Assembly: GCA_019752515.1 (NCBI GenBank) | Contig: JAIEMB010000036.1 | Span: forward strand, 1 to 32,593 | From: Alphaproteobacteria bacterium | GTDB lineage: Bacteria; Pseudomonadota; Alphaproteobacteria; UBA9655 | Direction: 5' to 3' | DNA: 32,593 nucleotides | Shown: positions 1,593-5,970 of the stretch, piece by piece | Numbering within the stretch: the stretch's first letter is position 1 | Layout of the letters: each line of letters opens with the position of its first letter | Notes under the pieces: generated by a model | Databases searched by the model: none | What the model saw: only the letters and a program-made list of their open reading frames with translations | What the model was told of the DNA's origin: nothing | Position numbers and translations under genes: made by a program

Positions 1593-1637
1593 ATGGTAAA
1601 TTGTAAAAGATGCACTATAATAACCCCATGCCAATGA
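1593..1637 (+). CDS. Short leader ORF overlapping the response-regulator start
   Basis: A 14-codon ORF (MVNCKRCTIITPCQ) begins 6 nt after a good Shine-Dalgarno run (GAAGG at 1582-1586) and stops at TGA 1635-1637. Its last four bases form ATGA with the ATG at 1634 of the response regulator, a typical translational-coupling arrangement. The regulator has no convincing ribosome site of its own. Three of the 14 codons are Cys (positions 4, 7 and 13). The sequence shows the SD, the start and the overlap; that it is translated, or senses anything, is inference. Confidence 0.45.
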   Translation: MVNCKRCTIITPCQ

Positions 1638-2323
1638 CAAAACCTCATATTTTACTGGTTGATGATGACGAACGTTTACGTGAGCTTTTACGTAAATTCC
1701 TCGTTGAAAATGGCTTTTTTGTTTCTACCGCAAGGGAAGCAGCACACGCTCGAGAGCTTATGGGGTTTTTTATCTTTGATATGATGATATTAGATGTGAT
1801 GATGCCAGAAGAAGACGGGCTTTCATTGACTGAATCGATTCGAAAGGGCCCTACACGTTTAAAAGATACTCCTATTCTTCTCCTTACAGCTATGGGAGAA
1901 ACGGAAAACCGAATTACAGGTTTGACACGAGGTGCGGATGACTACCTTCCAAAGCCTTTTGACCCGCGTGAACTTTTACTGCGTCTTCAAGCCATCCTTC
2001 GCCGTAGTCATGGTTCAAAAGGGAATATAAACCTTACAATGGGACATGTCAGTTATGATCTTCGCTTTAATCGACTAGAGCGACAAGGACGTCCTATAAC
2101 TTTAACCACCGTAGAAAGTAGCCTCTTAAAAATTTTTGCGCGCCATCGCGGAAAAGCACTTACCCGAGAAGATTTGGTATCCGAATATGAAGGAGATTTA
2201 AATCCGCGTACCATTGATGTACAAATCACACGTTTGAGACGAAAAATTGAAGATGACCCAAAAATTCCCCGCTACCTTCAAACGGTAAGAGGAAAAGGTT
2301 ATATATTGATTCCTGACGCATGA
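1634..2323 (+). CDS. OmpR-family response regulator
   Basis: DNA-binding response regulator. The receiver domain covers roughly residues 1-118: acidic pocket VDDDE near residue 10, phospho-acceptor Asp at about residue 54 (ILDVMMP), and conserved Lys in LPKPFDP. The C-terminal winged helix (about 130-229) carries the OmpR/PhoB recognition signature with RTIDVQITRLRRKIE and YLQTVRGKGYIL. The frame opens at ATG 1610 and has ATGs at 1628 and 1634. I prefer 1634 because it forms an ATGA overlap with an SD-equipped leader ORF and gives the usual short N-terminus before the receiver fold. The stop overlaps the kinase start by 4 nt (ATGA), so the two are one operon. The target genes cannot be deduced. 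Confidence 0.93.
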   Translation: MTKPHILLVDDDERLRELLRKFLVENGFFVSTAREAAHARELMGFFIFDMMILDVMMPEEDGLSLTESIRKGPTRLKDTPILLLTAMGETENRITGLTRGADDYLPKPFDPRELLLRLQAILRRSHGSKGNINLTMGHVSYDLRFNRLERQGRPITLTTVESSLLKIFARHRGKALTREDLVSEYEGDLNPRTIDVQITRLRRKIEDDPKIPRYLQTVRGKGYILIPDA

Positions 2324-3639
2324 AGTATTTTCTAAGACATCCTTTTAAAGCTATTAAATCATGCCTTCCTAAAAGCATGTTCGGACGCTCTTTACTGATC
2401 CTTGTGCTGCCATTGGTTCTTATTGAAACGATTTCTGCTTATGTATTTTTTGATCGTCATTGGGATCATGTTACAAAAGCCCTTGCGAATAACATCGCTG
2501 GAGAAGTGGCGACTATTAGCAATCTTTATGATGCCTATCCAAGAGGAGGAAATCTTTATCGAACTTTAGCGGGAACACACCTAAAACTACGAACGGAGTT
2601 TATTCCTGATAAAACAATTCAAACTCCTATTCCTGAAGAATGGCGTGAGAGTTTTCTCGACATAGCTTTAAAGCAACAATTATTCGCCTCATATACCTTT
2701 GAGATCTCTTCGAAAAATATTGTCATAGAAACTGAAGTAAATGGAGGCATTCTCAAATTTACAACGCCTCGTAAACGTTTATATAGCAAGACGTTCTCCC
2801 TCTTTATTATGTGGGTTTGCGGAACGTCAGCTTTCTTCCTTTTCGTAGCAGCAGTTTTTATGCACAATCAAGTAAAGCCTTTGCGCCGCCTAGCTATTGC
2901 CGCCGATCGCTTTGGAAAGGGTCGATCATTTCCGGCCTTTAAACCAGAAGGCGCTATTGAAATTCGCAAAGTAGCACATGCTTTTTTGGAAATGAGAGAA
3001 CGACTTCAACGTCAACTCACACAACGGACTGAGATGTTAGCAGGCGTGTCACACGATCTTCGGACACCTCTAACGCGCATGCGACTTCAATTAGCCATGA
3101 TGCCAAACTCAGCTGAAGTTGACGGTTTACAAAAAGACGTAGAAGAAATGAATAAAATGCTTGAGGGCTACCTTATGTTTGCGCGAGGAGAAGGTCTTGA
3201 AGAGTCCTCAGATACAAATATGAAAGAGCTTTTACAGGAAGTTATAGAAGGTCGTGCTCAACCTGATGTTGGGGTTCATTATGCCCCCTCCCCTCTTCCT
3301 ATCTTATGTGTTAAGCCACAAGCCTTAAAGCGCTGCCTAACAAATCTAATTAATAATGCCTGTCGTTATGGTCGCGAAGTATGGGTTCAGACAACAACAG
3401 ATAGTAATTTTCTTACGATTTCCATCGAAGACAATGGAAATGGCATTCCTGAAGATAAAATCCAGGATGTCTTCAAACCCTTTTTTCGATTAGATCCCTC
3501 TCGTAATATGTCAACAGGGGGAGTTGGTTTAGGACTTACTATTGCCCGTGATATTGCCCATAGTCATGGAGGAGATGTCGTTCTTGCTTCTTCAGAGATA
3601 CATGGCGGGCTAAAAGCTTCTCTTGTTTTACCTTATTAA
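2320..3639 (+). CDS. EnvZ-like sensor histidine kinase
   Basis: Membrane sensor kinase, 439 residues, partner of the regulator it overlaps by ATGA. TM1 lies at about residues 24-45 and TM2 at about 158-181. They enclose a periplasmic region of about 110 residues. A HAMP segment follows (NQVKPLRRLAIAADRFG). The H-box AGVSHDLRTPLTRMR carries the phospho-acceptor His245. The catalytic domain has the N-box NLINNACRYG, the G1 box EDNGNGIP, the F-box FKPFFR and the G2 box GGVGLGLTIA. All motifs look intact, so an active kinase is expected. The layout matches the EnvZ/OmpR type common in alphaproteobacteria; the stimulus is unknown. Confidence 0.93.
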   Translation: MKYFLRHPFKAIKSCLPKSMFGRSLLILVLPLVLIETISAYVFFDRHWDHVTKALANNIAGEVATISNLYDAYPRGGNLYRTLAGTHLKLRTEFIPDKTIQTPIPEEWRESFLDIALKQQLFASYTFEISSKNIVIETEVNGGILKFTTPRKRLYSKTFSLFIMWVCGTSAFFLFVAAVFMHNQVKPLRRLAIAADRFGKGRSFPAFKPEGAIEIRKVAHAFLEMRERLQRQLTQRTEMLAGVSHDLRTPLTRMRLQLAMMPNSAEVDGLQKDVEEMNKMLEGYLMFARGEGLEESSDTNMKELLQEVIEGRAQPDVGVHYAPSPLPILCVKPQALKRCLTNLINNACRYGREVWVQTTTDSNFLTISIEDNGNGIPEDKIQDVFKPFFRLDPSRNMSTGGVGLGLTIARDIAHSHGGDVVLASSEIHGGLKASLVLPY

Positions 3640-3889
3640 TAAATTGATTCCTTCTTACACCTCTAATAGTGGGCTTCCACTAGCTCTCGTTCATAGTAAT
3701 ACGCACGACGTAATAAATCAAAAAGCTAAAAAGGAAACAAAAGTTTTAGGAGTCAGACATCGTTTTCTGATGAGAAATAAGCATCAAAAATTTATCTGGA
3801 ATGACTCTTTTCGATTATACTAACCTTATTTATCCTTTGGCTGATTGAGTCTCATATGTAGCGAACTTATACACACTAGAATAAATTGC
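3640..3889. other. Intergenic stretch with no supported gene
   Basis: AT-rich gap after the kinase gene. One forward frame stays open over 3623-3823, but it starts inside the kinase gene, lacks an SD and encodes nothing I recognise, so I do not call it. I see only weak dyads (TCAGA/TCTGA around 3755-3773) and no U-tailed terminator. The promoter for the next operon lies at its right edge. Confidence 0.5.
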
Positions 3890-3919
3890 TTGACTATTTC
3901 CTTTCATTGTCATTAGGAT
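3890..3919 (+). promoter_or_regulatory. Sigma70-type promoter for the leader ORF / substrate-binding operon
   Basis: TTGACT (-35, 3890-3895) and TAGGAT (-10, 3914-3919) are separated by 18 bp. Transcription would start near 3926, giving about 30 nt of 5' UTR before the SD and ATG of the leader ORF at 3956. Position and spacing fit well; it is untested. Confidence 0.6.
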
Positions 3920-3955
3920 CTTCCTTATGGTCATTGGAAAAGGAAGGAGAGAGCC

Positions 3956-4096
3956 ATGGATATCATCAATCACAATTCTTACTTAGCTTCTCCTTATTGG
4001 CGTTGGCAATCTTATAATAGCTTACTAGTATTACAACAACTTTTGCCAATGAGAGAAAACCATGACATACTTAAAATATTTAAAAAATCATCTTAA
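3956..4096 (+). CDS. 46-residue leader ORF with a Tyr-Trp-rich run (candidate regulatory leader peptide)
   Basis: A short ORF with a stronger ribosome site than most genes here: AAGGAAGGAGAGAG just upstream of ATG 3956. It runs to TAA 4094-4096, overlapping the first 35 nt of the next gene (ATG 4062) in another frame. Residues 14-20 are YWRWQSY: two Trp and two Tyr in seven codons, with another Tyr at 9. This recalls the clustered regulatory codons of amino-acid biosynthetic leader peptides. The downstream genes encode TrpX-like binding proteins, which fits Trp sensing. Trp codon 17 (4004-4006) lies in the 5' arm of a hairpin whose 3' arm abuts the next gene's ribosome-binding region. The ORF, SD and pairing are visible; the regulatory role is inference. 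It could instead be an ordinary small protein. Confidence 0.55.
   Translation: MDIINHNSYLASPYWRWQSYNSLLVLQQLLPMRENHDILKIFKKSS
4001..4051 (+). promoter_or_regulatory. Candidate translational-attenuation hairpin
   Basis: CGTTGGCAA (4001-4009) pairs with TTGCCAATG (4043-4051) over 9 bp including one G-U. A small inner TAATA/TATTA stem lies within the loop. The 5' arm covers leader codons 16-18 (Arg-Trp-Gln). The 3' arm ends 10 nt before ATG 4062 and abuts its weak GAGAG ribosome site. ATTGGC at 3996-4001, over Trp codon 15, could pair with the same GCCAAT, giving an alternative fold. A ribosome paused on either Trp codon would change this structure. The base pairing is read directly; the function is inferred. 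Confidence 0.45.
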
Positions 4097-5027
4097 AACT
4101 GCAACATTACTTATTAGCTTTTGTTGTTCAACAGCTCTTTCTGCTCAAAAAACAATTGGGATAACACAAATTGTTGACCACCCTTCCCTGAATGAAATTC
4201 GTAAAGGAATTATAGAAGGTCTAGCACACGAGGGGTTTGTTGAAGGGAAAGACATCACCATTATTTTTGAAACTGCCCAAGGAAATTCAGCAACAGCCGT
4301 CCAAATTGCCCAAAAATTTGCAGGTCTTTCTTTGGACGCTATTATACCTATTTCAACACCATCTGCTCAACCTATTGTTCAACAAGTAAAAAAGACACCT
4401 ATCATCTTTGCCGCAATCAGTGATCCTATCTCTGCAAAAGTGGTTTCAACCCTTCACCATCCCGGAGGAAATGTAACAGGTGTCGCTGATATCCCTCCAT
4501 TGGAACAACAACTCAATTTTATAGAAAACTGCATTCCGCACTTAAAAACATTAGGGATTGTCTATAATCCTGGAGAAACAAATAATGTTTCCTTTCTCGA
4601 AAAGCTAAGGGCTGTCGCGAAGAAAAAGCATATTAAGATTGTAACCGCAAGTGCTTCGAAATCTGCGGATGTTCAAGCAGCAGCGCGCAGTCTAATAGCT
4701 GATGTAGATGCTATCTTTATAGGAAATGATAATACGGTTGTTTCTGGATTAGAACCCCTCATAAAAGCATCACTCGAGGCTAACAAGCCTCTTTTTGTGA
4801 GTGATCCCCAATCGGTTAATCGAGGAGCCCTTGCAGCTTATGCCTATGATCAGTACCAAATAGGCCAACAGGTCGGTGAGATGGTCGCACAAGTCTTGCG
4901 GGGTAAAAACCCTGGTGATATGCCTGTTCAGCAGCCTACAGGTCTCAAGATGTCTATTAATCCACATACAGCTGAAAAGTTAAAAATTACATGCTCTCTT
5001 TCAAATCAACCAGAGGAAGGTCGGTAA
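4062..5027 (+). CDS. TrpX-like ABC transporter substrate-binding protein (copy 1)
   Basis: Periplasmic binding protein of the ABC_sub_bind family (PF04392/COG2984), which includes the tryptophan-uptake component TrpX. Its 321 residues start with a signal peptide (hydrophobic core about 14-27, likely cleavage after ALSA, residue 28). Family-typical segments are GLAHEGFVEGKD, AISDPISAKVV, IVYNPGETNN and GNDNTVVSGLE. The second gene begins 1 nt after its stop and encodes a related protein, so this is a tandem paralogous pair in one operon. No permease or ATPase gene follows; the next gene is convergent hscA. Start ATG 4062 lies inside the leader ORF and has only a weak SD, suggesting dependence on leader translation. 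The ligand is not proven; Trp is a hypothesis from family and leader. Confidence 0.85.
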   Translation: MTYLKYLKNHLKTATLLISFCCSTALSAQKTIGITQIVDHPSLNEIRKGIIEGLAHEGFVEGKDITIIFETAQGNSATAVQIAQKFAGLSLDAIIPISTPSAQPIVQQVKKTPIIFAAISDPISAKVVSTLHHPGGNVTGVADIPPLEQQLNFIENCIPHLKTLGIVYNPGETNNVSFLEKLRAVAKKKHIKIVTASASKSADVQAAARSLIADVDAIFIGNDNTVVSGLEPLIKASLEANKPLFVSDPQSVNRGALAAYAYDQYQIGQQVGEMVAQVLRGKNPGDMPVQQPTGLKMSINPHTAEKLKITCSLSNQPEEGR

Positions 5028-5028
5028 A

Positions 5029-5970
5029 ATGCATCCTTTTTTTAGTTGGCTCTTGATAGGGTTTTTATGTTGGCAATCCGATGCTCTAGCCCTTGATAAA
5101 GTTCACGTTGCTGTGGGACAAATTGTAGAACATCATGCTCTCGATACCCTCCGCACAAGTTTAAAGAAAGGTCTTGAAGAACGTGGTTATGTGGAGGGAA
5201 AAAACCTCATATGGACATATGAGAATGCTCAAGGAAGTCCGGCTACGGCTGCGCAAATCGGGCATAAACTCACAGGTCTAGATCCCAACGTCATTGTCAC
5301 CCTATCAACGCCAATGACACAAGCTGTGGCTTCTTCTACAGACAAAATTCCAATAGTTTTTGGAGCCGTTTCTGATCCTGTAGCTGCAAAACTCAATGAT
5401 CTTTCTAATGTAACAGGACTTACAGATTTTGTTCCTTCTGAGAAACAACTTGAGCTTGCCAAAATAATTGTTCCTACTGCAAAAAGAGTTGGGGTGATTT
5501 TCAACTCTGGAGAGGCCAACTCTCAAAAGCAAGTTGAGCTACTCAAATCATTATGTGCTAAACAAGGTATTGAACTTGTTGAGGCAACGGTAACGAAGAG
5601 TGCTGATGTCTCATCTGCCACAAAATCGCTTGTGGGACGTGTAGATATCATCATATTGCCTACGGATAACACCGTTATTTCTGCTTTGGAAGCCATTATT
5701 AAAATCGGAGTTCACAATAAAATACCTATTATCGGAAGTGATGTGGATATTGTGCGACGAGGCGCCGTTGCAGCCTATGGGGTGGATTGGAGAGAATCAG
5801 GCTATGCTATTGCTCGCATCGTAAGCGATATCCTTCATGGAATTCCCATCAAAGATATTCCCATTCAAAACCCCAAGAAACTTGTCCTCCACGTTAATCC
5901 AGAAGCAGCTGAAAAAATGGGTGCCCATATTCCTGAATATTTGCAAGAACGTGCTGATATGGTGCTGTAA
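5029..5970 (+). CDS. TrpX-like ABC transporter substrate-binding protein (copy 2)
   Basis: Second ABC_sub_bind-family protein, 313 residues, clearly related to the gene 1 nt upstream. Both have an IV-D/E-H start motif, GYVEGKN/GFVEGKD, ENAQGSPATAAQI/ETAQGNSATAVQI, an NPGETN/NSGEAN element and NDNTVVSGLE/TDNTVISALE. A signal peptide covers residues 1-22, ending ALA. The SD lies in the end of the preceding gene (GAGGAAGG at about 5012-5019). Divergence between the copies suggests an old duplication, perhaps with different ligands or affinities. Transport requires a permease and ATPase that would have to lie elsewhere in the genome. A weak dyad (CTGAT/ATCAG) follows the stop, without a convincing U-tract. 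Confidence 0.85.
   Translation: MHPFFSWLLIGFLCWQSDALALDKVHVAVGQIVEHHALDTLRTSLKKGLEERGYVEGKNLIWTYENAQGSPATAAQIGHKLTGLDPNVIVTLSTPMTQAVASSTDKIPIVFGAVSDPVAAKLNDLSNVTGLTDFVPSEKQLELAKIIVPTAKRVGVIFNSGEANSQKQVELLKSLCAKQGIELVEATVTKSADVSSATKSLVGRVDIIILPTDNTVISALEAIIKIGVHNKIPIIGSDVDIVRRGAVAAYGVDWRESGYAIARIVSDILHGIPIKDIPIQNPKKLVLHVNPEAAEKMGAHIPEYLQERADMVL

Follow-up and report, generated by a model that had tools for sequence, protein, structure and literature searches.

In work attributed to Chen and Yanofsky (2003 and 2004), the short leader rtpLP of Bacillus subtilis is said to control rtpA, the gene for anti-TRAP. Both studies are cited in PMC11255114. In Firmicutes, trpXYZ and hisXYZ are controlled by T-boxes (PMC9382623, PMC9413887), and hisXYZ has also been described as controlled by HisR, a repressor of the TrpR family (PMC9413887).

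Here we describe a leader in an uncultured alphaproteobacterium for which rtpLP-rtpA appears to be the nearest known mechanism, although in a different system. The window, the whole stretch of 32,593 nucleotides that was analysed, is contig C20 of a 2.0-Mb genome estimated to be 96% complete. As in rtpLP-rtpA, a short leader with Trp codons would set translation of the next gene through the position of the ribosome, with uncharged tRNA-Trp leading to higher expression. By contrast, rtpLP ends just before the Shine-Dalgarno sequence, whereas the stop codon here lies 35 nt past the gene start; a T-box acts in tandem there, whereas here we see an anti-Shine-Dalgarno segment and no T-box; and the target there is anti-TRAP, whereas here it is a PF04392 importer binding protein of alphaproteobacteria.

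The leader and the gene it overlaps

The locus comprises the following features:

3890-3919, plus strand: predicted sigma-70-like promoter, TTGACT, 18 bp, TAGGAT
3944-3950, plus strand: Shine-Dalgarno sequence of the leader, AAGGAGA, complementary to 3989-3995
3956-4096, plus strand: leader ORF of 46 codons, with Trp15 at 3998-4000, Trp17 at 4004-4006 and its stop 35 nt inside the binding-protein gene
4062-5027, plus strand: TrpX-like ABC_sub_bind (PF04392) substrate-binding protein gene (Pfam E 1.5e-85), in the Trp-leader clade
5029-5970, plus strand: second, tandem ABC_sub_bind gene of its own clade, W2; judged by position, one transcription unit with the 4062 gene

The leader ORF begins MDIINHNSYLASPYWRWQSY and is preceded by AAGGAGAG. 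An earlier note on this DNA had described the promoter, a 46-codon ORF with a very strong Shine-Dalgarno sequence, the stretch YWRWQSY at codons 14-20 and an overlap of 35 nt between leader and gene start, and all four were recovered: the promoter in its place, the ORF with AAGGAGAG in front, the motif in the translation, and the overlap between the gene start at 4062 and the leader stop at 4096. TTGACT or TTGACA is also present 5' of the leaders of relatives. Immediately 5' of the leader, and in its orientation, genes for a two-component system (response regulator and histidine kinase) occupy 1610-3639 of the window.

Solved relatives of the 4062 gene product are 3lkv and 3lft. Residues T99, A118, D143, N224 and Q264 correspond by alignment to T108, A127, D152, N233 and Q273 of the streptococcal Trp-binding protein; where the latter has T129, 13 of the 16 Trp-clade rows carry Ser. 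Q273 of Streptococcus suis TrpX has been tied to streptococcal Trp specificity (PMC9382623). Position 264 is Gln throughout the Trp clade (16/16), Tyr in the F clade, His in the L clade and Trp in the W2 clade; the His clade also has Gln, but mostly carries Asn in place of the conserved Asp. With its PF04392 domain and a Gln aligned with Q273, the 4062 gene product keeps the TrpX-like identity first given to it and is predicted to be a tryptophan-binding protein. The tandem pair of binding-protein genes was found at all 15 same-genus loci and in G016, a genome of the same family; the W2 protein (L007-L021), with Trp at its specificity position, has no leader of its own.

Conservation of the Trp leader

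Each of the 14 other genomes of the genus, and G016 as well, has an orthologue of the 4062 gene, giving 15 same-genus loci including the window; the same-genus relatives with names are all uncultured MAGs, such as GWC2_42_16. A leader with a Shine-Dalgarno sequence and a W-R-W core precedes the gene at 15/15 loci. At 14 of them the leader overlaps the gene by exactly 35 nt in a different reading frame; the fifteenth, L017, has a leader that stops right after WRW. Because Trp accounts for only 0.57% of codons in six genes of the window, WRW at a fixed place in 15 genomes is not a matter of chance. The neighboring residues are also kept: of the aligned leaders, all have R16, 14/14 have S12 and 13/14 have P13. 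In codons outside the gene overlap, pN/pS was 0.58 in the leader frame, compared with 1.06 and 0.95 for the two alternative frames; on this measure, the Trp-group leader frame is under purifying selection, and the Shine-Dalgarno sequence and pN/pS together suggest that the leader is translated.

Beyond the genus, Trp-rich leaders also occur 5' of the genes of relatives, with at least five other families represented:

G016: VVWNWW
G015: VISHICLKNVFRWWRWRA, then a stop
G035: SWRWRHHHSC, then a stop
G028: APGWRWQ
G297: TKTWRWWEV
G249: EGRWWYCN
G149: GWRWQF, then a stop

A survey of 385 genomes of the class revealed further Trp-rich or His-rich leaders before family members in G297, G249, G149, G015, G374, G035 and G263. 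The leader frame and its Trp codons, for which relatives served as a check, are conserved both within the genus and beyond it. Short leaders that end before the gene were found at L214, L216, L026 and the same-genus L017, some ending about 50 nt upstream of the gene. In the genome of the window, a search for more WRW or His leaders found none beyond binding-protein genes among the loci inspected (30 of 62 WRW sites).

Two unusual leaders were seen in the wider set. At L223 (G258:C112), MIKNNLFIISL is followed by TAG and then, in the same frame, by NGWQWHPC 5' of the gene, an interrupted frame that may be a decayed leader or a sequence error. L195 (G342:C3) and L196 (G166:C17) have in common a 14-codon leader ending in IARWRHG, of mixed Trp, His and Arg, 5' of a PF04392 gene.

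Predicted pairings and access to the ribosome site of the gene

Four segments are involved in the pairings considered here:

3989-3995, plus strand: anti-Shine-Dalgarno segment TCTCCTT (Ser-Pro codons), able to pair with AAGGAGA of the leader or with the ribosome site of the gene
3988-4001, plus strand: 5' arm of a predicted Shine-Dalgarno-sequestering hairpin (local fold), UUCUC-CUUAUUGGC, in codons 11-16 (UUCUCCUUAUUGGC)
4045-4057, plus strand: 3' arm of the same predicted hairpin (local fold), GCCAAUGAGAGAA, holding the Shine-Dalgarno sequence of the gene, GAGAG (4051-4055)
4001-4009, plus strand: 5' arm of a 9-bp hairpin over Trp17, with 4043-4051 as partner and one G-U pair

The sequestering hairpin is the minimum-energy fold of 3976-4062 (-17 kcal/mol, z -2.0), with 6 of 200 shuffles as good. 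The 9-bp hairpin on which the earlier note had centered its proposal exists, but is not alone the local minimum-energy fold, which is the pairing of 3988-4001 with 4045-4057 that includes the Shine-Dalgarno sequence; the two hairpins are rivals for one 3' arm. The further suggestion that ATTGGC over Trp15 could pair with this arm proved possible, with GCCAAT at 4045-4050 facing 3996-4001. The compensatory changes in the arms that relatives might have displayed did not appear, and a covariation test of both hairpins gave none above shuffles. About 90% of cells retain the hairpin pairs, versus 33-71% for slid partners, and 97% retain the pairs between 3944-3950 and 3989-3995, likewise without covariation. 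Controls with synonymous codons placed 14 of 15 leaders above the control mean, with p<0.05 in only 3/15. The predicted sequestering hairpin is likely real but not established, because its pairs are kept, yet covariation is null and the synonymous-codon controls are mostly not significant.

The energy needed to open the Shine-Dalgarno sequence of the gene was computed with a ribosome placed at each leader codon. For 13 of the 15 same-genus leaders (the exceptions being L017 and L020), the cost fell from 4.9-9.5 kcal/mol with the ribosome at the first codons to 1.2-4.4 once a Trp codon occupied the A site. The cost also dropped in the distant G297, from about 8 to 2.7, and to a lesser degree in G249, from 4.4 to about 1.5, but leaders with an early stop lacked the drop. 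Predicted release begins once the ribosome covers codons 8-11, and is therefore not specific to the Trp codons. Both the hairpin and the change in accessibility are computed predictions.

A terminator scan of 3640-4300 returned 0 terminator-like hairpins, and the leaders of all groups yielded two candidates, both weak. Rfam searches at gathering and relaxed thresholds found no family and no T-box at the leader, with only a distant tRNA and a chance snoRNA match.

Paralogues, the permease and auxotrophy markers

Paralogous binding-protein genes carry overlapping leaders of their own:

His clade: MHRHHHxHH or MHHHHH, overlapping the gene by 22 or 34 nt
Leu clade: M-x-x-LLRLRLTS, overlapping by 31 nt
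Phe clade: M-x-x-FRFRSG, overlapping by 22 nt

In a maximum-likelihood tree of 86 proteins, leader type followed protein clade: Trp with 16 rows (100/97), Leu with 9 (100/100), Phe with 14 (99/97), and His with 15 rows, which fall in a 100/99 clade together with G028 L150, with an HRHCH leader, and the TrpR-family-linked L028 and L029. The WRW loci of G028 and G035 group with the Trp clade (92/83), a placement made unsure by long branches. In several families, His-clade genes that have no leader lie instead behind a gene of the Trp_repressor family (by Pfam in three, by sequence likeness in others); since this matches the known HisR-hisXYZ arrangement, the His clade is independently labelled HisX-like. 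A His-coded leader of the same design very probably controls the HisX-like paralogue. The Leu and Phe versions are suggested to sense their amino acids in turn; these assignments need caution because the L and F leader frames, with pN/pS of 1.06 and 1.09, have no peptide-level selection, and the F motif has Arg as often as Phe. All four leader types place Arg between the sensed residues, a feature for which the proposed sensor leaves no account.

Consensus folds of the His, Leu and Phe leaders contained no shared Shine-Dalgarno hairpin. In Leu-group leaders (L124-L130, L136, L138), the LRLT motif contains CTTACGA, the complement of TCGTAAG, which lies where the leader stops within the gene; their pairing would loop out the ribosome site of the gene. 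The His leader of L139 (G016:C99) is split, with MRHHHHHHHIHKGDNA and a stop followed by a second short ORF that has its own Shine-Dalgarno sequence and crosses the binding-protein start. At L147, L133 and L155 (at least three genomes), a large ORF resembling a VgrG/type VI secretion spike protein lies 3' of the His-led binding-protein gene.

Searches for trpB, hisD, PDT (pheA) and leuB gave no match over the cut-off in the genome of the window and nine same-genus genomes, with control genomes positive; leuB had matches below the cut-off only, which look like isocitrate-dehydrogenase-type relatives. Auxotrophy of these bacteria is likely, though not fully mapped, because single marker enzymes were used. 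One permease of matching type was found, in 9 of 10 genomes searched and inside the Phe-group operon, versus four to six binding proteins; on a simple reading, one permease core would be common to several binding proteins.

Proposed mechanism and alternatives

We consider it probable that the leader is a ribosome-based tryptophan sensor controlling translation of the tryptophan-binding protein. The reading of the earlier note, a Trp-sensing translational attenuator, is strengthened by the conserved frame and Trp codons, the lack of trpB and the TrpX glutamine, whereas its alternative structures are plausible in silico without covariation; sensing, like ribosome stalling, start occlusion and induction by Trp shortage, is something we infer. 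With charged tRNA-Trp plentiful, initiation at the strong leader site would be frequent, and ribosomes would pass codons 15-17 and then the ribosome site and start codon of the gene, reaching the stop 35 nt downstream and so occluding the gene start; between passages, codons 11-16 would fold onto its Shine-Dalgarno sequence. With Trp-tRNA short, a ribosome would stall at Trp15 or Trp17, covering the 5' arm of the hairpin and holding back the next ribosomes, so that the gene site would be free and more importer would be made. Given the predicted fold of codons 11-16 onto the Shine-Dalgarno sequence of the gene, stalling at the Trp codons should release that sequence. Occlusion by start-crossing ribosomes would be common to overlapping leaders of all types, with the Shine-Dalgarno hairpin an addition in the overlapping Trp leaders. 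Since their stop precedes the gene, the short leaders L214, L216, L026 and L017 cannot work by crossing the start, and would need another route, for example blocking by a ribosome that ends near the gene's site.

A sub-version of this mechanism shares the sensing step and relies on occlusion only, with leader ribosomes over the gene start repressing it, stalling relieving the repression and the hairpin incidental. The overlap with the gene is a constant 22-34 nt for His, Leu and Phe leaders, which have no Shine-Dalgarno hairpin, the second ORF of the split His leader in G016 takes ribosomes across the start, and the Trp hairpin lacks covariation, all of which agree with occlusion as the sole step; but 13 of 15 Trp leaders have a Shine-Dalgarno-sequestering fold and several leaders end before the gene, and we lean against this version while taking it seriously. 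Overlapping ORFs with a strong upstream Shine-Dalgarno sequence are a known layout for translational coupling. This is the layout observed, and the leader might merely boost the gene by termination-reinitiation without sensing any amino acid; coupling gives no reason, however, for amino-acid richness that is specific to each paralogue and tracked by clade, or for leaders whose stop lies about 50 nt 5' of the gene, which makes it very unlikely.

The conservation of residues other than Trp (S12, P13, R16), together with the Arg that each of the four leader types has between its sensed residues, would suit a sensor of the TnaC kind, in which free tryptophan causes the ribosome to arrest on the peptide SPYWRW itself. 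Pro is missing, however, from L017 (AALYWRW) and L020 (SSYWRW), short relatives retain only WRW, the Ser-Pro codons double as the anti-Shine-Dalgarno segment, and, if arrest opens the site, an importer would be induced by plentiful free Trp, which is the wrong signal; we judge a nascent-peptide sensor unlikely. Transcription attenuation of the classic trp/his operon type likewise begins with an upstream leader peptide rich in the regulated amino acid, but 3640-4300 has no terminator-like hairpin, the leaders of all groups supply just the two weak candidates, and no room is left for a terminator before the start because the leader runs into the gene; we disfavour it and regard it as extremely improbable.

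The sensor that we prefer may form part of a modular uptake system, in which one permease-ATPase core serves several binding proteins and each of their genes begins under an overlapping leader coded for one amino acid (Trp or His, and probably Leu or Phe), a shortage of which would raise only the matching adaptor; our confidence in this extension is evenly balanced. From the conservation of the Trp-rich leader and the His-rich, perhaps also Leu- and Phe-rich, leaders on sister uptake genes, we conclude that stalled ribosomes probably tell these auxotrophic alphaproteobacteria which amino acid to import. If this is true, the leader sequence names the amino acid imported by an otherwise unassigned binding protein, and substrates of the large PF04392 transporter family could be assigned straight from DNA, also in unculturable bacteria. 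T-boxes and HisR/TrpR repressors would be joined by a third means of controlling TrpX- and HisX-type importers, and translational attenuation would gain a form whose leader runs across the start codon of its target. Simple reporters would then make the nutritional dependence of these bacteria testable.

Comparison with known systems

A literature search for leader-peptide control of these importers in alphaproteobacteria, with most subscription journals outside its scope, found nothing, which does not prove absence. The T-boxes of Firmicutes control genes of this same protein family, and uncharged tRNA would be expected to induce the target in either case; however, T-box RNA reads the tRNA directly, whereas no T-box or other Rfam family lies at this leader. 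HisR controls the same kind of binding-protein gene (PMC9413887), and TrpR-family genes precede His-clade genes in related families, but HisR is a DNA-binding repressor, which the leaders appear to replace in this genus. The trpL, hisL, pheL and leuL attenuators of proteobacteria likewise have a leader peptide with clustered codons of the regulated amino acid, but control biosynthesis through a terminator, whereas the leader here has no terminator and its target is uptake. In translational attenuation of the ermC type, as proposed here, a stalled ribosome frees a sequestered Shine-Dalgarno sequence; stalling at ermC needs an antibiotic, whereas here it would come from a lack of charged tRNA. 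Leader-peptide sensing is an old principle, and what would be new is its use on the Trp and His importers of this family in alphaproteobacteria.
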